From positions 248,001 to 312,000 of the forward strand of contig NZ_JAIUFY010000005.1 of the NCBI RefSeq assembly GCF_020165855.1: a stretch of 64,000 bases of DNA, read 5' to 3'. This stretch comes from Celeribacter litoreus. Its GTDB lineage: Bacteria; Pseudomonadota; Alphaproteobacteria; Rhodobacterales; Rhodobacteraceae. Position numbers and translations under genes: made by a program. Below are positions 6,039 to 24,856 of this stretch, in pieces; position 1 is the first letter of the stretch; the number at the start of each line of letters is the position of its first letter. The notes beneath the pieces were generated by a model that did not search any database, was not told where the DNA came from, and saw only the letters and a program-made list of their open reading frames with translations.

Positions 6039-6047
6039 AATGTTGCC

Positions 6048-6881: not shown

Positions 6882-7735
6882 AGACCTCCCTTCGCAAAGC
6901 GGGCGGTGATGGCCGCGACAAGTGAGATCATGGCCACAAGGATGACGAGCATGAGCACAGAGAGTGCCGAGGCAACGGTGTAATTCAGAATGCGGAGCAA
7001 GCTCTGCACCGAGGCCGAGAGCACAACCACGTTCCCACCCCCGAGGAGTTCGGGCACTACCGGATCGCCAATCATCGGCACGAATGTGAAGACGATGCCA
7101 GCGCCAAGGCCGGGCAAGCCGAGCGGCACAATGACATTCCAGAACGTAAATGCCGGAGAGGCGCCAAGATCTTTGGAGGCCGCCAGCACCTCATCATCAA
7201 TCAGCATGAATGCGAGATAGAGAGGGAAGACCATAGTCGGGAAGTAGGGCCCAATCAGGCCGAGGATCACCGAGAACTGTGAAAACAGGAGCCAGTCAAG
7301 CGGCTCCTGGATGATACCGAGCTGGAGCAAGGCGGCATTGATCGGGCCGTTCAAGCCAAGCACACCGCGCCAAACGATGGTGCGCGAGGAAAGGGAGAGG
7401 AAAAATGGAATAGTCAGAAGTGCGAGGCTCACGGTGCGGACGCCCGCACTTTTCGTGCCCTTCGCGAGCCAGAGCGCAAACGGGACGGCGAGCAAGATTT
7501 CGATCAGCGTGACAATTGCCGCAATTTCGAGTGTGCGGATCGTGACCTGCCAACGCCCTGACGAGAGCACATCCCGATATGCCTGCAAGGACGGCTCCCA
7601 GACGATCTGAAAGTTTTCCATCGTGAGGGTTGACCAGAGGAGAAGTCCTGCCGTCGGGAGGAGGGCGACAAGCCCCCAAATCAGGACAAAAGACATATAG
7701 CTCGCTGGCGCGACGTGAGTGGGCGGTCGGAACAA
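6878..7735 (-). CDS. Polyamine-type ABC transporter permease (PotB-like), TTG start
   Basis: The second permease of the PotABCD-like importer, 285 residues from the proposed start. The reading frame stays open back into the binding-protein gene, but that part is unlike a permease. A TTG at 7735 with a strong AGGAGG nine bases upstream (7745-7750) is the best start; the first ATG (7696) would remove the N-terminal tail and has no such site. Several transmembrane segments and the EAA-like loop (ASKDLGASPAFTFWNVIVP) are visible. A hairpin separates it from the binding-protein gene. Confidence 0.85.
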   Translation of the reverse strand: MFRPPTHVAPASYMSFVLIWGLVALLPTAGLLLWSTLTMENFQIVWEPSLQAYRDVLSSGRWQVTIRTLEIAAIVTLIEILLAVPFALWLAKGTKSAGVRTVSLALLTIPFFLSLSSRTIVWRGVLGLNGPINAALLQLGIIQEPLDWLLFSQFSVILGLIGPYFPTMVFPLYLAFMLIDDEVLAASKDLGASPAFTFWNVIVPLGLPGLGAGIVFTFVPMIGDPVVPELLGGGNVVVLSASVQSLLRILNYTVASALSVLMLVILVAMISLVAAITARFAKGGL

Positions 7736-7771
7736 GGCTCGGAGCCTCCTGGGGTCGGAAGGGATTGGAGT

Positions 7772-7795
7772 GCGCCGGGCCGTAAAGCCCGGCGC
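7772..7795 (-). other. Intra-operon hairpin after the binding-protein gene
   Basis: A perfect 9-base-pair stem (GCGCCGGGC with GCCCGGCGC) with a six-base loop lies just after the binding-protein stop and before the permease ribosome-binding site. There is no T-run on the minus strand. Such hairpins commonly protect the upstream binding-protein message or partly reduce readthrough, so that the binding protein is made in excess over the permeases. Confidence 0.7.
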
Positions 7796-7802
7796 CTTTG
7801 GA

Positions 7803-8966
7803 TCAAGCCTGCTTGAAGCGGGCCCATTCGCTCTCGATGACGTCGACGTGGTCTGGCGATGCGTTCTGCCAGTAATCCGGCAGCGCCATTTTGCGCTCGA
7901 CCTTCGCCATGTTGTCTTCGATCGCGGCGGTCTGTTCCGCATCCCAGCCGTTATCGGCCGCGAACTGGAGCGAAGCTTCCGGGTTTGCAGTTGCGTAACC
8001 TTGGTTCACAGCAATCTGGGCGCCGTAGTCACCGCCGAGGAACCAGTCGATAGCTGTGTAGGCACGTGCGAGGCGTTCATCTTCTGCCTGCGACGGCAGA
8101 TAGGCCCCGATCATCCACTTGGAATAGCCTTCGCTACAGTTGGCATAGGCCACGTCTTTGCCTTCGCGCTGAAGCTGTTTGACCACCGGCTCCCAGCATT
8201 CTTCGATCATGGCTTCCTGGTTGCCGAGCATGTCGACAGATTCTTCGTAGGAGTGCCAGAAGGCGCGGAACTGTCCGGCTTTCTTGCGCTCAATGAGGAA
8301 GTCGACAACCATTTTGGCTTCTTCCGGCGTCATGTTCGACGGGTCGCCAATCGCAGCGCCTTTGCCTTTCAGGTAGAGTGCGGCATTGGGCATGGTGGTG
8401 AGCCACGTGTCTTCGAGCGCGACTTTGCCGAGCATGGCTTCATTTTCAAAAACCATTCCCCAGGACAGGTCTTCGCCAGCAGGCATGTCGTCGCTGACCC
8501 AGTAGCCGAAGCTGTCTGCGTTGAACACGATCGGGGCGCCGTATTGGGTGCCGTCCGGACCTTGGAGAAGCGGGCTGGCTTTCACGTCTGCGGACACCTT
8601 GTCCCACATCTTCATTGCGGCAGGGTCGAGGGCCTGAAAGTGACCGGATGCCCCAAGACGGTCTTCAATGCCGCCGTCGAAGATGAAGAGGTCAAAGTCA
8701 TCGCCAGCTTCGTTCGCGATCACTTCCTGGACGTAGAGGCCAGGGTTGGACTCGATTGGCACGAATTCGATTTCGAGGCCGGTGTCGGCCATGAAGCCAT
8801 CCCAGGCCGGAAGCGCAACGGTGGTCACGCCAAGGACGCGAACCTTGCCGGTCGCGGCGAACGCATTGCGGGCATAGAAAGGAGAAGCGAGTGCAGCGCC
8901 GCCAAGAGCAGCGCCAGCGCGCAGCACGGAGCGGCGCGTCAGCAGCGAAGAAGAGGACTTTTTCAT
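7803..8966 (-). CDS. Extracellular solute-binding protein, PotD-like, Tat signal
   Basis: A 387-residue periplasmic binding protein of the spermidine/putrescine (PotD/PotF) class. The N-terminus carries a twin-arginine signal (TRRSVLRAGAA, residues 10-20) followed by a hydrophobic stretch and a cleavage-like ARNAFAA site, so it is probably exported folded. It lies between the ATPase and the permeases in one minus-strand operon. The true ligand could be a polyamine, an omega-amino acid or a related amine; the adjacent aminotransferase favours an amino compound. Confidence 0.87.
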   Translation of the reverse strand: MKKSSSSLLTRRSVLRAGAALGGAALASPFYARNAFAATGKVRVLGVTTVALPAWDGFMADTGLEIEFVPIESNPGLYVQEVIANEAGDDFDLFIFDGGIEDRLGASGHFQALDPAAMKMWDKVSADVKASPLLQGPDGTQYGAPIVFNADSFGYWVSDDMPAGEDLSWGMVFENEAMLGKVALEDTWLTTMPNAALYLKGKGAAIGDPSNMTPEEAKMVVDFLIERKKAGQFRAFWHSYEESVDMLGNQEAMIEECWEPVVKQLQREGKDVAYANCSEGYSKWMIGAYLPSQAEDERLARAYTAIDWFLGGDYGAQIAVNQGYATANPEASLQFAADNGWDAEQTAAIEDNMAKVERKMALPDYWQNASPDHVDVIESEWARFKQA

Positions 8967-9008
8967 GGGAGGAGTTCCTGTTGTTGGACGTTGAGTTGGA
9001 GGAGAGTT

Positions 9009-10094
9009 TTATGATTTTGGGCAAAGGATCGTCTGATCCTTGTGCCAAGCGATGCGGGCCGTTTCGGTCGGCGCAGCATGGGATTGCCAGCTCCGCATCC
9101 GGATCGGTCCGAGCGCGGTCTGGTATGTCAGATCAAGGTATTTACCCTTGTAGATATGGCTGGTGAGCTTGCCCTCGAGGCTGTTCATGGACGTGGTGCT
9201 GTCGTCGGCAATCTGAACCCGTTCAGACCGGAACCCGCAGCAGATTGTCTCGCCCACTGAAGGCAGGGAGGCGCCGGTCCAGACCCCTTCGATAGAGGCC
9301 CCGTTGACCTCGACGGTCAGGCCCGCGTCCGACACGGCAACGACCTTCGCGTCAAATAGATTTTCGACCCCCATGAAACTCGCCGAAAAGCGTGAGTTCG
9401 GCCGGTCAAACATGTCTTCGGGCGTCCCTGTTTGGACAATGTCGCCGTCATTCATCAGAAGGATGCGATCAGACATGGTGAGCGCTTCTTCCTGAGAGTG
9501 CGTGACGTAAATGAAAGTCATCTCGAGGCGTCGCTGCAATTCGAGCAGCTCGACCTGCATGTCGATCCGCAGCTTTTCATCGAGTGCGCCGAGCGGTTCG
9601 TCGAGCAACAGGATGACGGGTTCGAGAACGAGGCTCCGCGCAATCGCAACGCGCTGCTTTTGTCCACCGGACAGGCGAGCGATGGGGCGCTCGGCAAAGT
9701 CGCTTAACTGCACCTGCTCGAGCATCTTGAGAGCGCGCTCTCGTCGATCGGCAGCAGGCACCTTTCGCGCACGGAGGCCGTATTCGACGTTCTCGCGCAC
9801 GTTCAGGTGCGGGAACAAGCCGTAGTGCTGGAAGACGGTGGAGACGTTTCGGCGGTTTGCCGGAATGTTGGACACGTCCTGACCGTCAAGCGTCATCACA
9901 TTCACATCCGTCGGTAGCTCAAGGCCCGCAAGAATCCGCAGCAGTGTCGATTTGCCGGAACCGGACGGGCCGAGGAGCGTGACGAACTCCCCGCGGCGTG
10001 CTTCGAGATCAATGCCGCGAAGCGCCGGTGTGTTTCCGTAGTAATGCCAGAGAGTCTTGACCTCTAGTATCCGGTCTTGTGAGGTGTTCGTCAT
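9009..10094 (-). CDS. Polyamine-type ABC transporter ATPase (PotA-like)
   Basis: A 361-residue ATP-binding subunit. Walker A GPSGSGKST is at residues 42-50, the signature LSGGQKQR begins at 141, and Walker B ILLLDE ends with the catalytic Glu166; the C-terminal third is a TOBE-type domain as in PotA and MalK. It is the first gene of the minus-strand operon and is read divergently from the RpiR regulator. Confidence 0.92.
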   Translation of the reverse strand: MTNTSQDRILEVKTLWHYYGNTPALRGIDLEARRGEFVTLLGPSGSGKSTLLRILAGLELPTDVNVMTLDGQDVSNIPANRRNVSTVFQHYGLFPHLNVRENVEYGLRARKVPAADRRERALKMLEQVQLSDFAERPIARLSGGQKQRVAIARSLVLEPVILLLDEPLGALDEKLRIDMQVELLELQRRLEMTFIYVTHSQEEALTMSDRILLMNDGDIVQTGTPEDMFDRPNSRFSASFMGVENLFDAKVVAVSDAGLTVEVNGASIEGVWTGASLPSVGETICCGFRSERVQIADDSTTSMNSLEGKLTSHIYKGKYLDLTYQTALGPIRMRSWQSHAAPTETARIAWHKDQTILCPKS

Positions 10095-10276: not shown

Positions 10277-11173
10277 ATGTCGCGAAATGAAAAGAGTGAG
10301 GCGCCAGTGACGATTCGAGAACGCATCCAGAATTTGGACACAGGTCTGACCAAGGCGGAGCAGCGAATATCGCGTGTCATCCTCTCGGATTATCCCGTCT
10401 CTGCGATGAAGACGCTGGCGGATCTCGGCAAAGACGCCGCGACCAGCCCGGCGACTGTGCTGCGCTTTGTCGGGAAGCTGGGGTACTCCGGCTATCCCGA
10501 GTTTCAAAAGTTTCTGCGTGACGAAATTCAGGGGGCGTTGGATACGCCCTTGAGCCGATTGCGTGCGGCGGCGGGGGAGACCGATGGTGGGGCGCCGCTT
10601 GAGAAATACGGGCGCTATGCGATGGAGTTGGTCCAAGAAACGATCGATATGGTTCCGCCCCAAACCATCGCTGAAGTTGTCGATATTCTCGCGGATATTA
10701 AGCGGCCGGTTTATCTCATCGGTGGGCGATATTCGCGGGGGCACGCGACGATCCTCGGTTACGGCCTCTCGTCTGTCCGAGGTCAAGTGCGCGAAGTTGA
10801 GGCAGAAGCCCGTGACATGGTCACAACTCTCGCGGACATCGGGCGTCGGGATATTGTCGTCGTGTTCGATTTTCGTCGATACCAGAGCAACATCGTCCAC
10901 TTTACCGAAGAAGCGCGCGCGGCAGGTGCCCGCCTGATCCTGTTTACAGATCGCTGGCAAAGCCCCTGTGCCGCTCACGCGGATCAGGTCATTGCCTTGC
11001 CGGTCGCGAGCCCCTCTCTCTTCGATACAGGACTTTCGACGCTCTTGTGTGTCGAGACGATTGTCTCTCAGTTGACGGATGCTCTCGGCTCCAAGAGTGC
11101 GGACCGGGTTGCGCGGATCGAACAGCTTTACAACAAAATCAACGATCTCGGGCCCTCTGGCGGAGGGGCGTGA
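10277..11173 (+). CDS. RpiR-family transcriptional regulator
   Basis: A 298-residue MurR/RpiR-family regulator. An N-terminal helix-turn-helix domain (about residues 10-85, including TSPATVLRFVGKLGYSGYPE) is followed by a SIS domain (about 125-265), which usually binds phosphosugars. It is divergent from the polyamine-type ABC operon and so is the likely local regulator. A SIS-domain regulator beside an amine importer is unusual; the effector may not be a sugar phosphate. The ribosome-binding site before the ATG is weak. Confidence 0.88.
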   Translation: MSRNEKSEAPVTIRERIQNLDTGLTKAEQRISRVILSDYPVSAMKTLADLGKDAATSPATVLRFVGKLGYSGYPEFQKFLRDEIQGALDTPLSRLRAAAGETDGGAPLEKYGRYAMELVQETIDMVPPQTIAEVVDILADIKRPVYLIGGRYSRGHATILGYGLSSVRGQVREVEAEARDMVTTLADIGRRDIVVVFDFRRYQSNIVHFTEEARAAGARLILFTDRWQSPCAAHADQVIALPVASPSLFDTGLSTLLCVETIVSQLTDALGSKSADRVARIEQLYNKINDLGPSGGGA

Positions 11174-11214: not shown

Positions 11215-12660
11215 TCAGAACAGCTCCGAGATGAACTTGGTGCGCAAATAGGCCTCTAGGCCCTCAATCCCGCTTTCTGATCCGAAGCCGGATTCATTTA
11301 CGCCGCCGAACGGAGTTTCCGGTGTCGAAACGGCCGTATGGTTCACGCCGACAAGTCCAGCATCAAGCGCGAGTTCGGTTTTCTGTGCGAGGCCGCCGTC
11401 ACGAGTAAAGACGAAGGAGGCGAGGCCGTAGGGGAGGGCGTTCGCCTTCTTGATCACTTCATCGAACGTGTCGAACGGCACTGCGGAGGCGATGGGGCCG
11501 AAGGGTTCTTCGCTCATAATCTTCGCTGTAGAGGGAACGTCTGCCAGAACAGTCGGTGCGAAATACCATCCCTGAAGTTCGAGAGCTGTGCCGCCCGCCA
11601 TAAGGCGTGCGCCTTTTTCGACCGCATCCTCCACGAGGTCGCGCATCGCGTCGACGCGGCGGGGGGCGATCATTGGACCCATCTGGGTGCCGTCGTCCAT
11701 TCCGTGGCCAATAACGACGGCATTGGCCGCATCTGCCATTTTCTGACAGAATTCTTCGTAGATCGAGCTGTGAATGAAGAAGCGCGTCGGCGATGTGCAG
11801 ACCTGTCCCGCGTTTCGGAATTTAGCGGCCGCAAGTGTGCCGACAGCATGATCGACATCTGCATCACCATAGACGATGACGGGAGAGTGTCCGCCAAGTT
11901 CCATCGTGGTGCGTTTGAGAGTTTCGGCCGCGCGCGCTTGAAGGAGTTTGCCGACGCGTGTTGAGCCGGTTAGGGACACCTTTTTGATTTCAGGCGCTGC
12001 GAGAAGATGCTTTGAAATATCATCTGGCACGCCGAATACGAGGTTGAGAACGCCAGCGGGCAGCCCTGCATCCTCAAAGGCACGTGTGAACGCGACCGCT
12101 GTGCCTGGTGTTTCCTCGGCTGCTTTTAGAATCAGCGAACACCCCGCGCCGAGGGCTGCGGAAATTTTGCGAATGACGTTCGATGCAGGGAAGTTCCACG
12201 CCGCAAATGCGGCGGTCGGACCGACCGGTTCCTTGAGTACCATCTGGCGCGCGCCGGGAATGCGTGCGGGGACCATCCGGCCATAGGTGCGCTTTCCTTC
12301 TTCGGCATACCAACGCGTTGCTTCGGCGGAGAAAATGACTTCCGCACGCGCTTCCGCGAGTGGCTTGCCGTTCTCCAGAGTCAGAACTTCGGCAATTGCA
12401 TCAGCGCGTGCTTCGATCAGATCTGCCGCTGCTTCCATGATCTTTGCGCGTGCGATCGGCGGCATATCTTTCCAAATGAGGAATGCGTCGGTTGCCGTCG
12501 CGACCGCGCGATCTAAGTCTTCAGTCGTCGCATGGGGAATCGATGCGAGGGTGCGCCCCGAGCCCGGATCGACCAGAGGGCTGTTTTCTCGTGAATCAGG
12601 GCCGATCCATTCGCCGCCGATGTAGAGTTCAATTGTCTCGGCGTAATTGTGTGCGGGCAT
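11215..12660 (-). CDS. NAD(P)-dependent aldehyde dehydrogenase, succinate-semialdehyde dehydrogenase type
   Basis: A 481-residue aldehyde dehydrogenase closest in pattern to GabD-type semialdehyde dehydrogenases. Catalytic residues are Cys288 (AGQVCTS), general base Glu254 (MELGGHSP) and Asn156 (WNFP); Lys179 is the expected cofactor-binding lysine. It would oxidise an omega-oxo acid made by an omega-aminotransferase. It is divergent from hyuB, and the intergenic space contains a GTGATC-N3-GATCAC operator about 90 bases upstream of its start, so it may share control with the hydantoinase-family genes and the aminotransferase at 16800-18203. Confidence 0.9.
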   Translation of the reverse strand: MPAHNYAETIELYIGGEWIGPDSRENSPLVDPGSGRTLASIPHATTEDLDRAVATATDAFLIWKDMPPIARAKIMEAAADLIEARADAIAEVLTLENGKPLAEARAEVIFSAEATRWYAEEGKRTYGRMVPARIPGARQMVLKEPVGPTAAFAAWNFPASNVIRKISAALGAGCSLILKAAEETPGTAVAFTRAFEDAGLPAGVLNLVFGVPDDISKHLLAAPEIKKVSLTGSTRVGKLLQARAAETLKRTTMELGGHSPVIVYGDADVDHAVGTLAAAKFRNAGQVCTSPTRFFIHSSIYEEFCQKMADAANAVVIGHGMDDGTQMGPMIAPRRVDAMRDLVEDAVEKGARLMAGGTALELQGWYFAPTVLADVPSTAKIMSEEPFGPIASAVPFDTFDEVIKKANALPYGLASFVFTRDGGLAQKTELALDAGLVGVNHTAVSTPETPFGGVNESGFGSESGIEGLEAYLRTKFISELF

Positions 12661-12747
12661 AGCTTTCTTTCGTTCAATCTGAATTTTTCAGTCACGCGGA
12701 AGGATTTTCCGCTTGCTGTATGGGTGGCTCGCCGCTAACCGTAGATT

Positions 12748-12762
12748 GTGATCTGTGATCAC
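12748..12762. promoter_or_regulatory. Operator A: GTGATC-TGT-GATCAC
   Basis: A perfect inverted repeat with 6-base arms and a 3-base centre in the divergent promoter region between the aldehyde dehydrogenase and hyuB. The same element occurs before the aminotransferase (18244-18258) and, with one arm mismatch, before the GntR gene (19036-19050). It is the probable binding site of that GntR regulator. Confidence 0.75.
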
Positions 12763-12791
12763 GCAATAGCAAAAACATGGAGTGCCCGACC

Positions 12792-14606
12792 ATGACGGAA
12801 GCGGCCGGAAATATGGGGCGTGAAACCGACGCTCCCGAACTCGAAGCACACCTCCTGCCGGTGCTGTCTGCGCGCCTCTCCGCGATTGTGCGAGAGATGA
12901 ACGCGACTCTGATGAAGTGCAGCCGGTCCTCGGTCATCAAAAACTCAAAAGACTTTTCATGTGGCCTTTTGACATATGATCACAGATTGCTCTCGGTCGA
13001 GGATTGTATTCCGATCCACATCGCTGCGCTTGAGCATGCGACGAAACCGATCACCGAGTTTTTCGACGACATCCGCCCTGGCGATGCCTTTATGAATAAT
13101 TGCCCTTACACGGGGAACTCGCACCACGCCGATATGACGTTGTGTGTGCCGGTGTTCGTCGATGGTGAACCCCTGTTTTGGACTTTGTCCCGGGCGCACC
13201 ACGCCGATATCGGAGCACCGATTCCGACGACGTATTTGACGGAGGCCGCGACGATTTATGAGGAGGGTGTGCACCTCCCCTGTGTGCAAATCCAGCAAGA
13301 TTATCGCGACCGCAACGACATCATTCGGATGTGCCGCACGAAAATTCGTGTCGCGGATCTCTGGTATGGTGACTACCTCGCACAAGTCGGCGCCTGCCGG
13401 ACGGGCGAGCGCCGTTTGCAAGAGTTGGCGGACCGCTATGGAAAGGATGTTCTGAAGGCATTTATCCGAAAGTGGATCGACTATGGCGATCGCATGATGG
13501 AGGCTGAAATCCGTAAACTACCTGCGGGGCGGTGGCGGTTTGAGACGCGCCATGATCCTGTTCCCGGTGTTGCTGATGACGGAATTCCCGTGAACGTCGA
13601 AGTGGAGATCGATCCAGTAGCGGCGACGATCACGGTTGATGCGACGGATAACGTCGATTGTGTTCCGGGCGGGCTAAACCTAACCGAAGCAACTGCGACC
13701 GCCGCGTGTCGTATTGGTGTCTTCTACAACCTCAATCCGGACCTTCCGCACAATCAGGGGAGTGCGGATCGCATACAGATCCGGCTGCGCGAAAACTGTG
13801 CCGTCGGCATCCCGCGTTATCCCGTTGGGACCTCTGTCGCGACAACCAACCTGACCTCTCGGCTGATCACCGCCGTGGCGTCCTGTTTCGCACAGATCGG
13901 CGAGAAAAACGGGATGGGCGAGTTCGCGTATTCACAAGCACTGGGCGAGGCTGTGATATCCGGCCAAGACCCGACGCGTGACGGTCTGCCTTATGTGAAT
14001 CAGGTATTCATCGGTTACGGCGGAGGTGGGGCCTCGCATGGTTTCGATGGCTGGTTGGCATCGGGTGCGGCCTGTGATGGCGGCCAGATGCAAATCGACT
14101 CCATTGAAATCACGGAGGGAATGTATCCCGTGCTCATCGAACAAAGGGGCTGTGCAGAAGACTCAGGTGGCCCCGGGCAGTGGGACGGTGCTCCTGGTAT
14201 TGAAGGCACTTTCCGTCCTCTTGCAGGCGAGATGACTGTTTACTGGGGATCGGATGGAGATGTGACGCCGGCCAAAGGTGTGGCGGGCGCGGGGGCGGCG
14301 GCAACCTCCGGCAACTGGATGCGCGAGCAAAACGGAGCCGAGAGGGTTTTGCCTGCATTCGGTGACACGACGATTTCGTCTGACCAAGCGGTCCGCTTCC
14401 GCGCATGCGGTGGCGGGGGTTACGGTGCGCCGTCCGAGCGCGATCCCGACAGCGTGGTGCGTTCTGTCAGACGTGGATGGGTCAGCCCATCGAGAGCGCA
14501 GGATGTCCATTGCGTCGCAGTTGAATGGGATGCGAGCGCCTTGGACTGGACATTGAACGAAACAGAAACGCAACGGTTGCGCGAGAAAGCTGGAGATGCT
14601 CGATGA
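12792..14606 (+). CDS. hyuB: ATP-dependent hydantoinase/oxoprolinase family, subunit B
   Basis: A 604-residue HyuB-family subunit. With HyuA it forms ATP-dependent ring-opening amidohydrolases (5-oxoprolinase, N-methylhydantoinase, lactamases such as CapAB and OplBA) or acetone/acetophenone-type carboxylases. Family-typical stretches are the DFSCGLLTYDHRLL region, the FMNNCPYTGNSHHADMTLC metal/substrate region and the glycine-rich RACGGGGYG near the C-terminus. The ATG at 12792 is chosen because GGAG precedes it by 9 bases; an in-frame ATG at 12777 lacks such a site. It overlaps hyuA by an ATGA. The aldehyde dehydrogenase and omega-aminotransferase nearby favour a lactam substrate, by inference. 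Confidence 0.88.
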   Translation: MTEAAGNMGRETDAPELEAHLLPVLSARLSAIVREMNATLMKCSRSSVIKNSKDFSCGLLTYDHRLLSVEDCIPIHIAALEHATKPITEFFDDIRPGDAFMNNCPYTGNSHHADMTLCVPVFVDGEPLFWTLSRAHHADIGAPIPTTYLTEAATIYEEGVHLPCVQIQQDYRDRNDIIRMCRTKIRVADLWYGDYLAQVGACRTGERRLQELADRYGKDVLKAFIRKWIDYGDRMMEAEIRKLPAGRWRFETRHDPVPGVADDGIPVNVEVEIDPVAATITVDATDNVDCVPGGLNLTEATATAACRIGVFYNLNPDLPHNQGSADRIQIRLRENCAVGIPRYPVGTSVATTNLTSRLITAVASCFAQIGEKNGMGEFAYSQALGEAVISGQDPTRDGLPYVNQVFIGYGGGGASHGFDGWLASGAACDGGQMQIDSIEITEGMYPVLIEQRGCAEDSGGPGQWDGAPGIEGTFRPLAGEMTVYWGSDGDVTPAKGVAGAGAAATSGNWMREQNGAERVLPAFGDTTISSDQAVRFRACGGGGYGAPSERDPDSVVRSVRRGWVSPSRAQDVHCVAVEWDASALDWTLNETETQRLREKAGDAR

Positions 14607-16660
14607 CCTACAAGATTTGCATCGACATCGGCGGGACCTTTACCGACTGTCTCGTTGAAGACTCTCAAGGCGCACGCCACATTTTCAAGGCGCCGACGAC
14701 GCCGGGCGTGTTCCAGAACGGATTCATGAACGCGATTGGCAAAGCTGCCGAAGGTTTCGGGTTTGAGATCGGCGCATTCCTCGATCAGGTGGATCGCATT
14801 GTCCATGGTTCGACCGTCTCGACGAATGCCCTCGTTGAGGGAAAAGTCGCCAAGACAGGCTACCTGTGTAATGCAGGACACCTCGATGTGCTGACCATCC
14901 GAGAGGCGCTTCCGAAGCCCGTTTTCGAATGGCGTCTCGATTACCCTGATCCTTATGTTCCGCGCAGCCGAACTTTTGGTGTCGCTGGCCGGATGACCGC
15001 GACGGGCGACGAAATCGAACCACTTGATGAAGCCGCAGTTGCCGACGCTGTGACCGCAATGAAAGCCGCTGATGTTGAGGCGATTGCCGTCTCCTATCTT
15101 TGGTCGATTGCGAATCCTGCACACGAGCTGCGCACGCGCGAGATTATCCGCGAAATCTGGCCGGAGGTGCCTGTTACCCTCGGCCATGAGCTCAACCCGA
15201 TCGGCCGTGAATATCGTCGGACCATTGCGGCAGTCACAGATGCGTCCTTGCAGCCCATCGTCTCGCGCTATGTGAGTGCGCTCACTGGTGCACTGAAAGA
15301 TGCGGGGTGGGACGGTGAATTGCTTCTGGCGAACTGTGTTGGGGGCATGATGCCGCCCGAGGACCTCATCCGCCAGCCGATCTACTCGGTCATGTCGGGG
15401 CCGACGCTAGCTCCCGTTGCGGCACAACAGCTTATGCCGGGGCAGAGCGTGATTGTGGCTGACATGGGGGGCACGACCTTTGACGTGTCCGCCCTTCGTG
15501 ATGGCGCTCTCGTCGTCTCACCAGAGGCGCGGATCGGCCATGACATGTTGGGCATCTCGAAGATCGATGTGCGCTCTGTCGGTGCGGGTGGCGGGTCCAT
15601 CGCGCGTCTCGATGCGGGCGGCATGTTGCGCGTTGGCCCAGAGAGTGCTTCTGCGGTTCCAGGGCCTGCCTGCTACATGCGCGGGGGGACAAAACCGACA
15701 ATCACGGACGCAAACCTCGTGATGGGGCTGCTCGATCCGGACCAGTTCCTTGGCGGGACAATGCCGCTCGACAAAGAGGCAGCCATCGCGGTCCTGACCC
15801 CGCTCGCGGAAGAGATGGGCGTCAGTCTCGAAGAGGCCGCCCATGCGATCTACACGACCTCGAACAATGCCATGGTCGGCCTGATCAATGACATGACCGT
15901 CAAAGAGGGGATCGACCCACGCGATAGTTCGATCGTCGTCGGTGGCGGTGCGACGGCGCTACACATCGCAGAGATTGCGCGAGAATTGGGTATTCGCGAA
16001 GTCCTGATCCCACGCTTTGCGGCGGGACTTTCCGCCTTCGGCGGTCTGATCTCCGATATTCGGCGTGAGGAAACTGCGACGCTTATGCAATCGTCTGAAG
16101 CCTTCGACGCTGACCGCGTGACGGAGGCGCTTATGTCGCTACAAGCGCAGGGTAAGGCATTCCTCGACGCCGCGGGCGTCGCGGAGAAACAGCACCGCTT
16201 CGAGTTTATCTTCCTCGGACGCTATCGCTATCAGAGCTGGGAAATCGAGGTGCCGTTCACGCTCACGGATGCGGGGCTGACGGAAGCAGATTTGGAGCGG
16301 CTCGTGAAGGCCTTCCATGATATGCACGAGCGCATCTATTCAGTTCGTATGGATGAGGATGTGGTCGAGTTCACCACCTGGAAAGTGCGTGTGACGGGAG
16401 AATGCGCAGAGAAAATTGCGCCTGCAGGCAAAGTACCTTCAGAGACAAAAGAGGCGACAGTCCGGCAGAAACGCCCGCTGTATCTCTATTCGGCAGGGGC
16501 CAAAGTGGAGTGTCCTGTGCACATGGGGGGCGATCTCATCGCGGGCGATATGATCGAAGGGCCTGCATTGATTGAGGAGCCGACGACAACGATCTATGTG
16601 CCGGAGGGCGTTTCGATCACCTTGGATACCGAAAGCAATTATTTGATGCGGGTTGGGTGA
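14603..16660 (+). CDS. hyuA: ATP-dependent hydantoinase/oxoprolinase family, subunit A
   Basis: A 685-residue HyuA-family subunit that carries the ATP site of the acetate-kinase/Hsp70-like fold: DIGGTFTDCLV near residue 8, DMGGTTFDVS near 289, and GAGGGSIARLD near 330. It would phosphorylate the lactam or imide for hydrolysis together with HyuB. The ATG at 14603 lies in the hyuB stop (ATGA), with GGAG upstream; the frame's extension to 14525 only shadows hyuB. Regulation is probably through operator A upstream of hyuB. A strong terminator follows. Confidence 0.88.
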   Translation: MTYKICIDIGGTFTDCLVEDSQGARHIFKAPTTPGVFQNGFMNAIGKAAEGFGFEIGAFLDQVDRIVHGSTVSTNALVEGKVAKTGYLCNAGHLDVLTIREALPKPVFEWRLDYPDPYVPRSRTFGVAGRMTATGDEIEPLDEAAVADAVTAMKAADVEAIAVSYLWSIANPAHELRTREIIREIWPEVPVTLGHELNPIGREYRRTIAAVTDASLQPIVSRYVSALTGALKDAGWDGELLLANCVGGMMPPEDLIRQPIYSVMSGPTLAPVAAQQLMPGQSVIVADMGGTTFDVSALRDGALVVSPEARIGHDMLGISKIDVRSVGAGGGSIARLDAGGMLRVGPESASAVPGPACYMRGGTKPTITDANLVMGLLDPDQFLGGTMPLDKEAAIAVLTPLAEEMGVSLEEAAHAIYTTSNNAMVGLINDMTVKEGIDPRDSSIVVGGGATALHIAEIARELGIREVLIPRFAAGLSAFGGLISDIRREETATLMQSSEAFDADRVTEALMSLQAQGKAFLDAAGVAEKQHRFEFIFLGRYRYQSWEIEVPFTLTDAGLTEADLERLVKAFHDMHERIYSVRMDEDVVEFTTWKVRVTGECAEKIAPAGKVPSETKEATVRQKRPLYLYSAGAKVECPVHMGGDLIAGDMIEGPALIEEPTTTIYVPEGVSITLDTESNYLMRVG

Positions 16661-16686
16661 TTTAGCATCAAGAAGACCTTTGAAGA

Positions 16687-16716
16687 GGCCGGATGATTTT
16701 CGTCCGGCCTTTTTTG
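16687..16716 (+). terminator. Terminator of hyuB-hyuA
   Basis: A 10-base-pair stem (GGCCGGATGA with TCGTCCGGCC, one wobble pair) with a TTT loop is followed by a run of Ts from 16710. This is a textbook intrinsic terminator for the plus-strand hyu operon. Confidence 0.9.
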
Positions 16717-16736
16717 TTCCCAGTGACGCACAAATG

Positions 16737-16763
16737 AAAAGGACCGGAGGCGAGCCTCCGGTC
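16737..16763 (-). terminator. Terminator of the omega-aminotransferase gene
   Basis: On the minus strand, GACCGGAGGC pairs perfectly with GCCTCCGGTC (16742-16763, almost no loop beyond the central bases) and is followed by TTTTCATTTG. It lies downstream of the aminotransferase stop at 16800 and faces the hyuA terminator. Confidence 0.8.
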
Positions 16764-16799
16764 TAGATGTTTGGGAAGAGATTATTGTTATGAGGGGAC

Positions 16800-18203
16800 T
16801 TAAATCTCGCCTGCTGTCTTGTGCAGGTCTGTCACGGTCGCGACGGATGTCTTGAGGGCGGAGACGAGAGTTTCGACGTTTTCCTCGGTCATCGTGAGCG
16901 GCGGAGACATGGCGATCACGTCGCGGTGGGGAAGTGTCCTGACAAGCAGACCATTCTCATAGCCTTGTGCCTGAACCTTGCCTGCCGTTTTGAGGCCCAG
17001 TTCGAAAGCTTCCTTGGTGTCGCGGTTTTTTACGAATTCGACACCGAAGATCATCCCCTCACCACGGATGTCACCAACAATCGGGCTGTCGCCCAGTTCT
17101 TCTTTCAGGCGTTTCATCATGTATGCGCCTGTCGTTGCGGCTTTCTCAATCAGGTTCTCGCGTTCCATGATCTCGATGTTTGCGAGCGCTGCTGCGGCGC
17201 AAACGGGATGCGCGGAGTAGGTGAAGCCGTGGCCAAAGCTTGCCATCTGCGAAGATGTGTCACGCAGCACGTCCCAAATGCGTTCGCTGATCGCGCTGGC
17301 GGAGAGGGGGAGATAGCCGGAGGACAGGCCTTTCGCCATCGTCATAATATCCGGGCGAATTTCGTAGAGATCGGAGCCGAACCAGCGGCCGAGACGCCCG
17401 AAGCCACAGATCACCTCATCGGCGATCATCAGCACGTCGTACTTGTCGAGGACCTTCTGAACTTCTTTGAAGTAGCCGGCGGGCGGCGGAAGAACCCCGC
17501 CGGTTCCCATCACCGGTTCTGCGATGAAGGCCCCAACGGTTTCCGGGCCTTCTGCGATGATCATGTCTTCAATCTCGCTCGCGAGTTTCTTGGCGAAATC
17601 GGCTTCGCTCATGTCATCCGGTTTGCCCCGATACATGTCGACGGAGGAAGCGTAGCGCATCTGCGGCAGCGGCAGGTCGAACTTCTCATGATAGAGAGGC
17701 AGGCCTGTTAGACTGCCGGAACCGATGGTCACGCCGTGATAGGCGCGGTCGCGGGAGATGATCTTCTTCTTCTCCGGTTTGCCGCGCAGGTTGTTGTAAT
17801 ACCAGACGAGCTTGATGTTGGTGTCGTTGGCGTCGGAGCCGCCGGAGCCGAAAATGATCTTGCTCATGCCTTTCGGGGTATGGCTCAGGACCTTGTCGCC
17901 AAGAAGGATTGAGGCCTCGTTCGACATGGACGTGAAGGAGTGAAAGAACGGCAGGGTCGAAATCTGTTTGTTCACGGCATCAACGATTTCCTGACGGCCA
18001 TAGCCGACGTTCACACACCATAGACCTGCGGCGCCGTCGATGAAGGTGTTGCCCTTGCTGTCGGTCACATGGACGCCTTTGCCCTCCGACATGATGCGTG
18101 GCCCGTTGGCCAGATGATCCGCGATGGAGGTCGCGGGGTGCAGGAGACGCTCTTTGTCGAGCTCCTCAAGGGAGAGGTTATGGGTAGAGGGCGTTTGGTC
18201 CAT
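16800..18203 (-). CDS. Class III omega-aminotransferase (pyruvate-dependent type)
   Basis: A 467-residue class III aminotransferase of the omega-amino-acid/amine:pyruvate group. The PLP Asp is Asp262 (ADEVICGFGR) and the Schiff-base Lys is Lys291 (MAKGLSSGY); FGSGGSDAN at 118-126 binds the cofactor phosphate. I chose the ATG at 18203, with GGAG six bases upstream; the frame opens at a GTG at 18251, but that lies inside operator B and adds 16 atypical residues. The operator lies 41-55 bases upstream of this ATG. In the proposed pathway it turns the omega-amino acid released by HyuAB into a semialdehyde for the dehydrogenase at 11215-12660. Confidence 0.88.
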   Translation of the reverse strand: MDQTPSTHNLSLEELDKERLLHPATSIADHLANGPRIMSEGKGVHVTDSKGNTFIDGAAGLWCVNVGYGRQEIVDAVNKQISTLPFFHSFTSMSNEASILLGDKVLSHTPKGMSKIIFGSGGSDANDTNIKLVWYYNNLRGKPEKKKIISRDRAYHGVTIGSGSLTGLPLYHEKFDLPLPQMRYASSVDMYRGKPDDMSEADFAKKLASEIEDMIIAEGPETVGAFIAEPVMGTGGVLPPPAGYFKEVQKVLDKYDVLMIADEVICGFGRLGRWFGSDLYEIRPDIMTMAKGLSSGYLPLSASAISERIWDVLRDTSSQMASFGHGFTYSAHPVCAAAALANIEIMERENLIEKAATTGAYMMKRLKEELGDSPIVGDIRGEGMIFGVEFVKNRDTKEAFELGLKTAGKVQAQGYENGLLVRTLPHRDVIAMSPPLTMTEENVETLVSALKTSVATVTDLHKTAGEI

Positions 18204-18243
18204 TTCGGGCTCCGAATCTGATGTTTCGAGGCCACTGTAATCC

Positions 18244-18258
18244 GTGATCACAGATCAC
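18244..18258. promoter_or_regulatory. Operator B: GTGATC-ACA-GATCAC
   Basis: A perfect 6-3-6 inverted repeat immediately upstream of the omega-aminotransferase start. Its arms match operator A exactly, and the flanking GCAAT is also shared. Confidence 0.75.
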
Positions 18259-18313
18259 GCAATGAACGACGTGAAAATTGTGTAAGCGTTTGATTGTCAG
18301 CGTATGCCGACAG

Positions 18314-18354: not shown

Positions 18355-19020
18355 TTAGTCTTCGGGCGCTGTTCGCTTGAGGAATTCAATGCCGTCGAGA
18401 ATATCGCGCTCCATTTCGACGCGTGCCCGTTCTGCATCGCCCTCACGGATCGCGTCGACGACTTGGTGATGTCGGTCAATCTCAGCTTGGTGCGCGACAT
18501 CGTTTTGGAACATGTACATGAATGGGCCGACCTGTAGCCATAGGCGCGAGACGAGGTCCTGAAGGGGCTCTGAAGCTGCGGCTTCTACGACCGCAAATTT
18601 GAATTTCTTATTGGCGTTGACGTAGCCGCGAGCATCGCCTGCCACAGAGGCTTCGCTCAGTGCGTCAGCCAGCTTTTCGAGATGAGAGACTGTACGTTTG
18701 TTCGCCTTCGCTGCCGCGAGGGCAGCCGCACGTCCCTCCAGAAGCGCGCGAAGTTCGATACGCTCCAAATATTCTTCGTGCGACATTTTCGGAAGTTCGA
18801 CGCCGCCAGTTGCGTTTTGTGTTGCGATTTTTTCTGCGACGAGCCGCGTAAGCGCCGCACGGACCGGCATAGCAGACACACCGAACTCATCCGCAATGCC
18901 ACGAACCGTCAACCGCTCGCCTGGGGCAAATCGACCAGCCATGATGGCAGACCGCAATTCATGATAAACTTTGTCGTGAAGCGGTTCGCGGGAAATCTTT
19001 TGAAAACGGGATTTGGTCAT
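18355..19020 (-). CDS. GntR-family regulator with FCD domain
   Basis: A 221-residue GntR-family (FadR subgroup) regulator. The winged helix lies at about residues 12-78 (LTVRGIADEFGVSAMPVRAAL) and the all-helical FCD ligand-binding domain at about 85-210. Operator C sits 16 bases before its start, so it probably represses itself. Perfect copies of the same palindrome before hyuB/aldehyde dehydrogenase and before the aminotransferase mark those as its targets. FCD domains usually bind carboxylic acids, which suits an omega-amino acid or dicarboxylate effector. Confidence 0.9.
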   Translation of the reverse strand: MTKSRFQKISREPLHDKVYHELRSAIMAGRFAPGERLTVRGIADEFGVSAMPVRAALTRLVAEKIATQNATGGVELPKMSHEEYLERIELRALLEGRAAALAAAKANKRTVSHLEKLADALSEASVAGDARGYVNANKKFKFAVVEAAASEPLQDLVSRLWLQVGPFMYMFQNDVAHQAEIDRHHQVVDAIREGDAERARVEMERDILDGIEFLKRTAPED

Positions 19021-19035
19021 ATGAAGCGCCTATTT

Positions 19036-19050
19036 GTGATCACTTATCAC
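19036..19050. promoter_or_regulatory. Operator C: GTGATC-ACT-TATCAC
   Basis: Third copy of the 6-3-6 inverted repeat, with a single arm mismatch, 16 bases upstream of the GntR start. The position fits autorepression. Confidence 0.7.
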
Positions 19051-19430
19051 ATATATCAAGGTGTTGGCCGGTGCTAGGGCTTTGTGGGTGTGGCGCCGCT
19101 CAAGCCCCGGTTCCGGAAACTCGCCATTTCCTTCATGGCGGTGAACAAAATTTGCCAGCGAAGAGATTCTCTCTCTGAGTCGTGGTCTTATGCACAGAAG
19201 CAGCGTGCGGTTGCGCTAAGTTGTTCGTAAATGCGGCATTTCGGTTCGGTTTGCCCAAAATTACGTCAGTTTCCTCCAAAAATCTATGATGCGTTGACCC
19301 ATTTCGCTGCGAGTCCTTCTGCAAATTCTATCTAAGCGACAAGCTTGAAGAGACGGAGCCGGATTTTGCGGCTTTGGTTTGTCGGGCCTTTATGACCCTT
19401 CTTTGATCTCTTTTCATTTAAGGTTCTGCC
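19051..19430. other. Long intergenic region between gntR and araC-type genes
   Basis: About 380 bases without a convincing gene. A 63-codon frame at 19133-19324 (minus) has no recognisable protein character. The region should contain the araC-type promoter; GC falls somewhat toward 19420 and AAGGTT precedes the ATG at 19431. I see no clear operator, small RNA or repeat in it. Confidence 0.5.
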
Positions 19431-20415: not shown

Positions 20416-20979
20416 ATGACCCCTCTGAAATCTGCAGCTACCGCTGCGCTCTCCGCGCTTTGTCTCACAGGGCCGACATCGGCTTGGGCGGCAGACTTCT
20501 CCCTCTCTTCTTCATCGGCTCCTGACGGGGTCTTCAAGAACGCGCAACTGCTCTCCGAGCCCTATGGCTTTGGATGTGACGGAGAAAATCTATCCCCGCA
20601 ACTGACCTGGAGCGATGTGCCTGAGGGCACTCAGAGTTTTGTTCTACGCATGCACGACCCGGATGCGCCAACCGGAATTGGCGGGTGGACACACTGGGTT
20701 GTCGTCAATCTTCCGGCGGATGTGACGGGTATCCCCGAAGGTGGGCCAATGCCCGCCGGTGCGCTGGAAACGCGCACCGATTTCGGGATGCCGGGCTATG
20801 GTGGGGCCTGTCCGCCGGAAGGCCCCGCGCATCGCTATGTCTTCACGCTCGACGCGCTCAGCATCCCGCAACTCCCAGCCGACATGATCACCGCAGACAG
20901 TATGCCCGCCTTCGTCGGGTTCCTGACGGGCGCTTACTCGCTTGGGCAGGCCAGTCTGACTGTGACCTATGGCCAGTGA
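20416..20979 (+). CDS. YbhB/YbcL-family (PEBP-like) secreted protein
   Basis: A 187-residue protein of the phosphatidylethanolamine-binding/Raf-kinase-inhibitor-like family. A Sec signal peptide covers residues 1-25 (cleavage-like SAWAA), and the core motifs DPDAPTGIGGWTHW and GPAHRYVFTLDAL are clear. Bacterial members are periplasmic or cytosolic with poorly known roles. It ends 18 bases before the deacetylase-family gene and probably shares its transcript. Confidence 0.85.
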   Translation: MTPLKSAATAALSALCLTGPTSAWAADFSLSSSSAPDGVFKNAQLLSEPYGFGCDGENLSPQLTWSDVPEGTQSFVLRMHDPDAPTGIGGWTHWVVVNLPADVTGIPEGGPMPAGALETRTDFGMPGYGGACPPEGPAHRYVFTLDALSIPQLPADMITADSMPAFVGFLTGAYSLGQASLTVTYGQ

Positions 20980-20997
20980 TGAACCGGGGGCGACGTT

Positions 20998-21885
20998 ATG
21001 ACGAAGACTGATTTCTCGTGGCCTGACGGCAAGAAGCTCGCCATTTCGATTGTTGTGAACATTGAAGAGGGCTCCGAGCTTTCGATCAAGGAAGGCGACA
21101 AAAAACCGGAGCCGGTCGATGAGCTTGGAGTCGCGCTGCGCATTCCAATCCGCAACTATATCAACGAGAGCAACTATGCCTACGGGATCAACGAGGGCGC
21201 GCGCCGTGTCTTTGATTTGCTCGAGGCGCGCGAGATGGATTGCACGGTCACGGCGGCGGCTTTGTCCTTGGAACGTGCGCCCGCTCTCGCGGCACGCATT
21301 GTCGAAAATGGCTATGAAGTCTGCTCACACGGCTACCGATGGGTGCACCAGTTCTCCTTTGATGAAGAGCGCGAGCGGGAGTTTATCTCGAAGGCCGCGA
21401 CGAGCATCGAAAGTACCTGCGGCGCCCGCCCGCAAGGTTGGCTGAGCCGCTATCTGCATACGGACAATACGCATCGCCTGCTGCTCGAAGAGGGCTACAG
21501 CTACCACATGGACAACCTGTCGAGCGATCTTCCGTTCTGGGAAGAGGTCGCCATGACAGACGGAAGCACCAAGCCGCTCCTCTGCGTGCCCTACGCAATC
21601 GACACCAACGACATGAAGATGTGGACCTCTCCGAGTTACACGCCGGAGCAATGGCTCGCCTACAACATCCAGAGCTTCGACTGGTATCTGCGCGAGGCGC
21701 GCGAGCTCGGTCCGCGGATGACCTCGGTCGGGCTTCATCTTCGCATCATCGGACGACCCGGGCGCATCTGGGCGCTCGAAAAATTCCTCGATCACGTGGA
21801 CCAGTTCCGCGACGAGGTCTGGATCACAAGCCGCGCGAAAATCGCAGAAAGTTTTATGTCAGCACACCCCTTCTCAGGGGGCTGA
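20998..21885 (+). CDS. Polysaccharide-deacetylase-fold hydrolase, PuuE-like
   Basis: A 295-residue NodB-fold protein of the branch that includes PuuE allantoinase and cyclic-imide-type hydrolases. The N-terminal VVNIEEGSELS stretch, ALRIPIRNYINES, and CSHGYRWVHQFSFDEE match that branch, where the sequence is shorter than true peptidoglycan deacetylases and cleaves small cyclic amides. There is no signal peptide, so it acts in the cytosol, which also argues against polysaccharide. It opens the catabolic array with TRAP genes following after 87 bases. A ring-opening or deacylating first step is inferred. Confidence 0.78.
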   Translation: MTKTDFSWPDGKKLAISIVVNIEEGSELSIKEGDKKPEPVDELGVALRIPIRNYINESNYAYGINEGARRVFDLLEAREMDCTVTAAALSLERAPALAARIVENGYEVCSHGYRWVHQFSFDEEREREFISKAATSIESTCGARPQGWLSRYLHTDNTHRLLLEEGYSYHMDNLSSDLPFWEEVAMTDGSTKPLLCVPYAIDTNDMKMWTSPSYTPEQWLAYNIQSFDWYLREARELGPRMTSVGLHLRIIGRPGRIWALEKFLDHVDQFRDEVWITSRAKIAESFMSAHPFSGG

Positions 21886-21972
21886 CGGCGTGCCGCGCCT
21901 TGGGGAGGGGAAGCGGCTTCAGACAGGCATAACCAAATAAAAAACCACCAACATCTACCAACAGAGAGACCA

Positions 21973-22953
21973 ATGAAACACCTCCTCAAATCTACCGCTC
22001 TTGCGGCCGCTCTGACGGTCGGAACATTTGCCGCTCACGCTGAAACCTGGGATGTCTCCATTCCCTGGGGTCCATCCGAATTCCACACAATCGACGCGCA
22101 GAACTTTGCTGCTGCTGTGTTGGAGGCCACCGACGGCGAGCTTGAACTCATCATCCATCCCGCCGGTGCGCTGGGCGTTCGGCCGAATGAAACCGTGCGC
22201 GCCCTCGAAGACGGCGTCGTTCCGATGGGCGAAACTGCGGCCTTCCTCAATGTCGGTGACGTGCCGCTCCTCGGTCTCGATGGCCTTCCGTTCCTCATCC
22301 AGTCCGAAGAGGATCTCGACCGGTTCTTCGCGCTGATCCGTCCGGTTTGGGCCGAGGCGCTCGAAGAACGGAACCAGAAACTGCTCTACGCTGTGCCGTG
22401 GCCGACCCAGCTCATTTACACCAAGAAAGAGGTCAACACACTCGACGATCTCAAAGGTGTGCCGATCCGCACGCTCGATGCGATCACGACCACGATGGCC
22501 GACAGCCTCGGGATGCTCCCGCTGATCCTCGGCTCCGGTGACATTGTTCCTGCGCTCGCGACCGGCAAGCTTGAGTCCGTCATGACCTCCGGCACCACGG
22601 CTGTCGCACAGAAATATTGGGAGTTCATGGACTACGGCTACGTCACCGACCACATCATTTCGCTCAACATTATGTCCGTAAACATGGACTACTGGAACGA
22701 TCTCGATCCGGAGACGCAAAAGACCGTCGAAGACCTCGCCCTGAAAATGGAACCTGAGTTCTGGGAAGTCGCAGCGGCTGAACACGAGACCCGCATCGCC
22801 GAACTGGAAGCCAATGGCATGACCATCGAAGAACCCTCCGAGGAACTTCTGGCCACCATGCGTGCGGCAACAGCGGATATGGAAGGCGCTTTGATCGAAC
22901 GCGCCGGTCCGAAAGCCGCAGAAGTACTCGAGGCGTTCCACGCAGGCGAATAA
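21973..22953 (+). CDS. TRAP transporter solute-binding protein (DctP family)
   Basis: A 326-residue periplasmic DctP-type binding protein with a signal peptide (residues 1-23, AAHAE cleavage). The conserved LDDLKGVPIRTLDA region near 158 carries the Arg that usually pairs with a substrate carboxylate. It is followed by small and large permease genes, giving a full tripartite, sodium-driven importer for an organic acid. Confidence 0.9.
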   Translation: MKHLLKSTALAAALTVGTFAAHAETWDVSIPWGPSEFHTIDAQNFAAAVLEATDGELELIIHPAGALGVRPNETVRALEDGVVPMGETAAFLNVGDVPLLGLDGLPFLIQSEEDLDRFFALIRPVWAEALEERNQKLLYAVPWPTQLIYTKKEVNTLDDLKGVPIRTLDAITTTMADSLGMLPLILGSGDIVPALATGKLESVMTSGTTAVAQKYWEFMDYGYVTDHIISLNIMSVNMDYWNDLDPETQKTVEDLALKMEPEFWEVAAAEHETRIAELEANGMTIEEPSEELLATMRAATADMEGALIERAGPKAAEVLEAFHAGE

Positions 22954-22970
22954 GCCACGCGACGCCTCAT

Positions 22971-22999
22971 GGACTGCGGGATGGTAGACCCCGCAGTCC
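22971..22999 (+). other. Intra-operon hairpin after dctP-type gene
   Basis: A perfect 10-base-pair stem (GGACTGCGGG with CCCGCAGTCC) and a nine-base loop lie 18 bases after the binding-protein stop and before the small permease. Without a T-run it is best read as a stabiliser or attenuator that favours binding-protein expression. Confidence 0.7.
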
Positions 23000-23030
23000 T
23001 CCTAACCAATTCCCTAACGAGAGGTCTGCG

Positions 23031-23552: not shown

Positions 23553-23555
23553 GAT

Positions 23556-24839: not shown

Positions 24840-24856
24840 CTTTTCTCGGAGCTGAA

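Follow-up and report, generated by a model that had tools for sequence, protein, structure and literature searches.

An operator-linked gene set predicted to open a cyclic amide with ATP in Celeribacter litoreus

Background

Do the HyuB and HyuA genes of Celeribacter litoreus form one pathway with the neighboring genes for an omega-aminotransferase and a semialdehyde dehydrogenase, and which ring would this pathway open? The genes lie in a stretch of 64,000 nucleotides (contig NZ_JAIUFY010000005.1, positions 248,001 to 312,000), which we call the window and whose own numbering is used throughout. A sequence-only reading had placed there, at 11215-18251, a lactam-degradation pathway under a shared predicted regulator, had likened HyuAB to CapAB of Pseudomonas jessenii and OplBA of P. 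putida, and had named 2-pyrrolidone, valerolactam and caprolactam as candidate substrates. With somewhat better than even confidence, we propose that the genes form a catabolic regulon, induced by its substrate, that breaks down a cyclic amide: a polar, perhaps alpha-amino, lactam would be opened at the expense of ATP and the product then transaminated and oxidised.

Results

All four genes are open reading frames (ORFs) where they had been placed, with family matches far beyond chance. The gene of the semialdehyde dehydrogenase (ALDH; 11215-12660, minus strand; Aldedh, 518 bits) is divergent from that of HyuB, the metal-site subunit (12777-14606, plus strand; Hydantoinase_B, 435 bits). HyuA, the ATP-site subunit (14603-16660, plus strand; Hydantoinase_A, 249 bits, with N- and C-terminal domains), starts at 14603, in an ATGA overlap with HyuB, and not at the longest-ORF start, 14525. 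It is followed by the class III omega-aminotransferase AT1 (16800-18251, minus strand; Aminotran_3, 292 bits). A GntR/FCD regulator (18355-19020, minus strand, with FCD and GntR domains) lies beyond the end first drawn for this set and belongs to it.

We derived a palindrome, YGTGAT-N5-ATCACD, from a side-by-side reading of intergenic DNA from the window and from Rhodobium orientis, the end letters being fitted to both. It occurs in three places in the window (6 strand-matches, where 0.03 are expected): between ALDH and HyuB (12747-12763, TGTGAT-N5-ATCACG; the same 17-mer stands at the same promoter in Rhodobium), before AT1 (18243-18259, CGTGAT-N5-ATCACG; Rhodobium counterpart L024:1228) and before the GntR gene, which suggests autoregulation (19035-19051, TGTGAT-N5-ATCACA; Rhodobium counterpart L024:484). 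The whole genome (3.66 Mb) has four copies, three of which are those of the HyuBA/ALDH, AT1 and GntR promoters, within 6.3 kb of each other (binomial p 2e-8, uniform placement being assumed); the fourth lies outside the locus at G000:C9:464289-464305. Since the pattern was written after the window and Rhodobium had been seen, its independent tests are this genome-wide rarity and the sites of Ancylobacter: in A. moscoviensis, versions with one or two mismatches precede the same three promoters, and three matches were reached by none of 100 shuffles. Hence, the genes of HyuBA, ALDH, AT1 and the GntR protein look like one regulon, and the shared regulator that had been predicted from the sequence alone is now backed by three operator copies. 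That the GntR/FCD protein itself binds the palindrome, represses and responds to an effector is what we infer from this arrangement. Because the operator at 18243-18259 covers the GTG at 18251, the true start of AT1 is probably the ATG at 18203.

Exact copies of the palindrome are found in 4 of 155 loci; two of these are copies of the window or Rhodobium locus and one is L064. We also considered an operator common to a second clade of loci, described below, and rejected it, no shared palindrome being seen in the promoter stretches of seven of them.

How often these genes travel together was counted from a scan with a HyuB profile, which gave 56 loci; 54 were kept (L073 and L079 were dropped, their HyuB falling under 42%), and the count was made on the 35 with flanks of more than 9 kb on both sides, the 19 with a flank of 9 kb or less being excluded. 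Genes in unannotated loci were called by our own script. The controls were 20 other HyuAB loci with about 9.2 kb on each side, all from the window's family and thus not matched in taxonomy. An AT1-type aminotransferase, by an identity threshold of 38% that was set after the data were seen, is present in 21 of the 35 clade loci against none of the 20 controls (Fisher 5e-6), and any ALDH in 13 against one (Fisher p 0.01); the two occur together in 10 clade loci, and L-2-hydroxyglutarate oxidase (LhgO) occurs in 5. At no identity do the controls contain an aminotransferase whose best match in the window is AT1; such an enzyme, at 34%, does occur at one of the genome's own three HyuA paralogue loci (L023).

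The nearest locus, that of Rhodobium orientis, holds within 14 kb counterparts (69-86% identical) of the genes described so far and of an adjoining group in the window (4716-10094, all on the minus strand) which the sequence-only reading had missed. This group encodes AT2, a class III pyridoxal phosphate (PLP) enzyme of the family of alpha-amino-epsilon-caprolactam (ACL) racemase and amino acid amide racemase (4716-6038), and an ATP-binding cassette (ABC) importer: permeases of PotC type (6048-6881) and PotB type (6878-7696, a gene called by our script), a periplasmic substrate-binding protein (7803-8966, SBP_bac_8) and an ATPase of PotA type (9009-10094). Identities to the Rhodobium proteins are 71% for GntR, 77% for AT1, 86% for AT2, 75% for PotC, 77% for PotB, 82% for the binding protein, 69% for PotA, 74% for ALDH, 85% for HyuB and 74% for HyuA. 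In Rhodobium, a same-strand run ALDH-PotA-binding protein-PotB-PotC-AT2 starts at the operator and heads away from HyuBA; in the stretch seen, this locus has neither an RpiR gene nor the genes found at 1965-4651 of the window. Two Ancylobacter species have the importer beside HyuBA (PotC 47-48%, PotA 51%, binding protein 52-54% there and in L027; their PotB-type permeases and that of L027 are 59-61% identical to Rhodobium PotB), with AT1 (66%) and GntR (47-48%). Taken together, the operators, the Rhodobium set and the linkage counts bear out the proposal that HyuAB, the omega-aminotransferase and the dehydrogenase make up a co-regulated pathway.

More distant loci form a second clade (Mesorhizobium, Brucella haematophila and relatives, Roseovarius, Poseidonocella and others), in which HyuA-HyuB stand with a sugar-like importer of TorT type and frequently with an aminotransferase that shares 41-47% identity with AT1. 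Roseovarius halotolerans (L059) has importer, HyuA, HyuB, aminotransferase, ALDH and LhgO one after another on one strand. A third group (L037, L038, L039, L041, L043, L058) has HyuB and HyuA apart, with a branched-chain-type importer in between. Some second-clade loci (L015, L044, L048, L074, L010) also carry a VOC protein together with E1 and E2 of a 2-oxoacid dehydrogenase complex; relatives of the class IV aminotransferase of L068 stand in ten distinct loci; and a Mesorhizobium plasmid (L008, 11983-25764) bears two HyuAB pairs, an acetolactate-synthase-like gene, an aminotransferase, a GntR protein and a succinate-semialdehyde dehydrogenase (SSADH). In the window's own family the HyuBA pair is rare: a HyuB query at E 1e-100 matched 2 of 295 genomes of the family, and a HyuA query at 1e-150 matched 2 of 390 genomes of the order, the genome under study being counted in both. 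The viral contigs searched for HyuB gave one pattern match and no relative.

We placed HyuA in a tree of 70 of 102 rows, built without any human or yeast sequence, human OPLAH included, and without NmpA, HyuA of Pseudomonas NS671 or IaaC. The window's HyuA falls within a 32-row clade (support 100). The CapA-like rows form a separate branch (7 rows, support 99), as do ApcC/AcxB (support 99), and a branch with support 98 joins N-methylhydantoinase (7hk5), 18 further rows, among them the three other HyuA proteins of the genome, and three fused chains, which we take to be of oxoprolinase type. Several rows on this and the reference branches, 7hk5 among them, have long end branches, and their mutual order is unsure. 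Identity is 52% within the clade and 43% and below outside it, with 35-38% to members of the CapA clade; the NCBIfam scores, 571 bits for HyuA (CapA model) and 289 for HyuB (CapB model), both stay under the cut-off of 1000. On this evidence HyuA is not a CapA/OplA orthologue, which speaks against the close kinship to CapAB and OplBA first assumed; nor does it appear to be an oxoprolinase or a carboxylase, since it groups with neither among the references compared. A grouping of the latter kind had been named in the sequence-only reading as the result that would refute it, and with these references it did not arise. HyuA proteins of the CapA clade do exist in Paracoccus and in the family to which the window belongs (L093 (G023), L061, L105), separate from the window's clade.

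Both phosphate motifs DxGGT of HyuA, aligned to CapA, are kept (DIGGTFTD and DMGGT); its SAVPGP is one letter off the adenosine motif GxxPGP and does not match it. HyuB keeps the CapB-type Asp-His-Asp-His metal ligands (D59, H116, D119, H141) and Y153, which corresponds to Tyr136 of CapB; in CapAB, the ligands and the Tyr are described as essential or proposed as catalytic (PMC8453981). The pocket is another matter. CapB and three relatives agree at 12 non-ligand pocket positions, the Tyr among them, and HyuB differs at 6 of these: M339 is T360, A365 is S386, P408 is A431, C411 is D434, L415 is M438 and F468 is G491. Where CapB has vicinal cysteines, HyuB has C433-D434, and the vicinal disulfide is absent; at CapB L38, less constant among relatives, HyuB has N56. 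The pocket is thus predicted to be more polar, which argues against plain caprolactam.

AT1 passes the cut-off of PRK06105 (574 bits against 517); its best-scoring model, PRK07482, gives 618 bits, under the cut-off of 687. The best NCBIfam model for ALDH is SSADH (TIGR01780; 477 bits, cut-off 646). ALDH keeps the GabD positions R165, R283 and S446, which we take to bind the carboxylate, and C289, the catalytic Cys. In Ancylobacter moscoviensis and Roseovarius, the ALDHs come closest to 2-oxoglutarate-semialdehyde and 2,5-dioxovalerate dehydrogenases, all under the curated cut-offs. Both second-clade LhgO proteins scanned pass the cut-off of 299 (550 and 578 bits). CsiD was found at its family cut-off in none of the 20 genomes searched, five LhgO-bearing ones included, the genome of the window having one match, with a score of 20 bits, that stays below it; nor has this genome an LhgO above the cut-off. 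We therefore rejected a CsiD/LhgO glutarate route like that of P. jessenii. Since the second-clade LhgO proteins pass their cut-off although CsiD reaches its own in none of the 20 genomes, the five-carbon product of the second clade may carry its 2-hydroxyl from the start.

The racemase-family protein AT2 deserves separate attention. Its PDB scores are 396 bits for amino acid amide racemase (6gio), 392 for ACL racemase (2zuk) and 381-385 for the class III homologues of the latter, the next kind being isoleucine 2-epimerase at 230; by these scores, AT2 is assigned to the ACL / amino acid amide racemase family, closer than to other class III PLP enzymes. It is 46% identical both to 6gio and to the ACL racemase of Achromobacter obae, yet the tree puts it on a branch apart from them, together with the Rhodobium copy and one from a Klebsiella plasmid (65%). 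We compared it with 15 other racemase-family loci (L124-L138). Homologues of a glutamine-synthetase-like gene occur there in 10, of an RpiR regulator in 9 (28-35% identity), of an N-formylglutamate-amidohydrolase-like gene (FGase) in 11 and of an isochorismatase-like gene in 8, and HyuA or HyuB in none, so that AT2 mostly belongs to another module. The remainder of this module is present in the window, as an RpiR/MurR regulator (10277-11173, plus strand; HTH_6 and SIS) and the glutamine-synthetase-like, FGase-like and isochorismatase-like genes (1965-4651, plus strand), whose tie to HyuBA is uncertain.

AT2 is tied to HyuBA in the window, in Rhodobium, as the last gene of the operator-led run, and, less tightly, in a metagenome-assembled genome from Baikal, where AT2, FGase, isochorismatase, importer and a 42% HyuA adjoin. 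Rhodobium has a second racemase elsewhere, in a complete module, an indication that the copy linked to HyuBA does a job of its own. At the level of genomes, the racemase family occurs in 5 of the 7 searched genomes that have a close HyuB relative, against 9 of 384 others, and in 0 of 4 second-clade genomes. We gave this little weight, because in two of the five (L150 and L151) the gene sits among neighbors that, judged by eye, we take to be housekeeping genes, and because the L031 genome seems to be one of the 385. The module itself (glutamine-synthetase-like, RpiR/MurR, FGase-like, isochorismatase-like, importer and racemase genes; L124, L134-L138 and the window) is found on plasmids of Klebsiella, Maritalea, Shinella, Sulfitobacter and Rhizobium. 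In Klebsiella, 45 of 85 records have a racemase match, the neighbors having been read in one; an Ensifer copy shares 76% identity with the ACL racemase of A. obae. A literature search, weak in that it covered mostly open-access papers, gave no report of an ACL-racemase/HyuAB cluster or of a glutamine synthetase-FGase-isochorismatase-RpiR-racemase module.

The window contains, apart from this system, a second catabolic block at 20416-38299, with a phosphatidylethanolamine-binding protein (PEBP), a polysaccharide deacetylase, a tripartite ATP-independent periplasmic (TRAP) importer, an enoyl-CoA hydratase, two MmgE/PrpD proteins, an AMP-ligase-like protein, an amidase, an oligopeptide-type ABC importer and a GMC oxidoreductase.

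Discussion

In the pathway that we propose, the importer, whose binding protein is of putrescine type, would take up a lactam, and the racemase-family enzyme may interconvert its alpha-amino enantiomers; this second step is the weakest. By analogy with CapAB, HyuA would activate the lactam at the cost of ATP, by way of a phosphorylated lactim (or via carboxyphosphate), and at the metal site of HyuB the activated ring would be hydrolysed to an omega-amino acid. Going by their families, AT1 would transfer the omega-amino group to an oxo-acid acceptor, and ALDH would oxidise the semialdehyde to a dicarboxylate. The GntR/FCD protein would govern HyuBA, ALDH, AT1 and itself through YGTGAT-N5-ATCACD.

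Like the window, the P. jessenii caprolactam cluster has a GntR-type regulator, CsiR, which we take to be of FCD type, and the CapAB metal ligands and phosphate motifs are kept in the window. The cluster is described as comprising CapAB, omega-aminotransferase, 6-oxohexanoate dehydrogenase, LhgO, CsiD and CsiR (PMC6061476), with the same reaction logic and the same B-A gene order (PMC8453981, PMC6061476). It differs in the clade of its HyuA and in its Cys-Cys pocket; the window adds the importer and the racemase-family enzyme, and its genome has neither LhgO nor CsiD above the cut-offs. OplBA of P. putida KT2440, which acts on valerolactam, is of the same ATP-dependent lactamase superfamily and, being reported as 80-86% identical to CapAB (PMC8453981), is about as far from the window; it is described as preferring valerolactam, butyrolactam giving traces of activity or none (PMC11033972). 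Plasmid-borne CapA-like pairs keep other company, an allantoin-type permease adjoining in 2 of the 3 bacterial loci seen. The nmpABCDEF genes for N-methylpyrrolidone (Alicycliphilus BQ1, Paracoccus), likened here by their description, share with the window a HyuAB-like first step and a final SSADH, but where the window has the aminotransferase they have an amino acid oxidase (PMC6987047, PMC12866759). The glaH-lhgD-gabDTP-glaR genes of E. coli likewise lead from an omega-amino acid through a semialdehyde to a dicarboxylate under their own regulator, with no lactamase and a different transporter. The window's system would thus work like the CapAB and nmp systems while standing outside the CapAB clade. 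A role in the opening of opine lactams has been proposed for HyuAB-like genes of Ti plasmids (PMC6733357), which places other lactams within the range of the superfamily.

Which lactam is meant? That the ring is a lactam still appears the best proposal; 2-pyrrolidone, valerolactam and caprolactam fare less well, the racemase-family gene and the importer suggesting an alpha-substituted, polar compound. The racemase, the polar pocket and the second-clade LhgO without CsiD point to substitution at C3, and the most likely candidate is a lactam whose ring has five to seven members and bears a polar group at C3, 3-amino-2-piperidone (ornithine lactam) first, with lysine lactam or an unsubstituted lactam as alternatives; plain caprolactam or valerolactam is less likely. 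Taken on its own, the choice of C3-substituted lactams with ornithine lactam at their head is tentative and less likely right than not. LysRS2 is reported to activate ornithine, which cyclises to the lactam (PMC8001834). The metabolomics literature names ornithine lactam, one diatom case being a silylated gas chromatography-mass spectrometry feature and maybe an artefact. A possible though rather speculative extension is a natural alpha-amino lactam pathway, where the ACL-type racemase would feed the right enantiomer to the new lactamase clade, the acidic D434, where CapB has its vicinal disulfide, would meet the alpha-ammonium group, 3-hydroxy-2-piperidone would be the substrate of the LhgO-bearing second-clade clusters, and the routes would converge at glutamate or 2-oxoglutarate.

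Several observations weigh against a polar-lactam regulon of this kind. The importer/AT2 operon of the window has no operator copy, and the RpiR gene stands between; the two Ancylobacter genomes have no racemase-family gene at E 1e-70, their ALDH is a different one (33% identical to that of the window), and A. lacus has two operator matches only, a number that 4 of 100 shuffles reach. The racemase family, apart from occurring without HyuAB in the comparison loci, is described as acting on amino acid amides, esters and a thiolactone as well as on alpha-amino lactams (PMC7431475, PMC11391342). AT1 and ALDH are members of broad families, and the window's genome has no LhgO above the cut-off. As to linkage, AT1 is missing from 14 of the 35 long-flank loci, two of the 21 loci with AT1 (L074, L078) have a broken HyuB, and the aminotransferases linked outside Rhodobium and Ancylobacter, at 41-47% identity, are candidate orthologues of AT1.

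A rival, that of the sequence-only reading, is a route in which 2-pyrrolidone (or valerolactam or caprolactam) would give gamma-aminobutyric acid (or a homologue), the semialdehyde and succinate (or a homologue), the racemase gene being an unrelated neighbor. The nearness of ALDH to SSADH, with all three GabD positions kept, would suit it, as would the enzyme order of the P. jessenii cluster (PMC6061476) and the use of HyuAB-like NmpAB with SSADH by N-methylpyrrolidone degraders (PMC6987047, PMC12866759). We nevertheless consider it doubtful: the Cys-Cys pair and five more pocket letters common to CapB and all three relatives are changed, HyuA lies outside the CapA clade, and the racemase gene closes the operator-led run in Rhodobium.

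Still less probable is that HyuAB would turn a hydantoin or dihydropyrimidine into an N-carbamoyl amino acid, stripped of its carbamoyl group by the isochorismatase-like hydrolase and then burned by AT1 and ALDH. N-methylhydantoinase is indeed the second-best PDB match of HyuA, the matches of the isochorismatase-like protein include RutB and N-carbamoylsarcosine amidohydrolase, and a 58% relative of it lies upstream of HyuB in L027. However, the solved N-methylhydantoinase stands on a different branch from HyuA and has Gln and Leu at the positions aligned to CapB H124 and Y136, where the window keeps His and Tyr; the isochorismatase-like gene has no operator copy; and a homologue is near HyuB in 1 of 56 loci at E 1e-10, many loci being short. 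We rejected isochorismatase as a fixed HyuBA partner: it accompanies the pair in L027 only, a locus at the edge of a contig, and G988 has it close to a HyuA that is more distant (42%). As for a 5-oxoprolinase, or a ketone or other carboxylase, membership of the same superfamily is what would speak for it, and we regard it as very improbable. HyuB and HyuA are separate genes, unlike the fused oxoprolinases; ALDH and AT1 flank HyuBA directly with no further carboxylase subunit between, and after glutamate they would have no evident role. 5-Oxoproline is moreover an unlikely substrate because a PxpA-family gene stands elsewhere in the genome.

Conclusion

The polar-lactam regulon proposed here would represent a second clade of ring openers that spend ATP, one that appears to be uncharacterised and is set apart from the nylon-monomer enzymes; in Alphaproteobacteria of sea and soil it would come with a regulon, an importer and partner enzymes of its own. 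Thanks to the operator, the regulon can readily be traced among near relatives. If the substrate is indeed an amino lactam, this would suggest a physiological role for the industrially used ACL racemases, and the clade would offer new lactamases for polar lactams.

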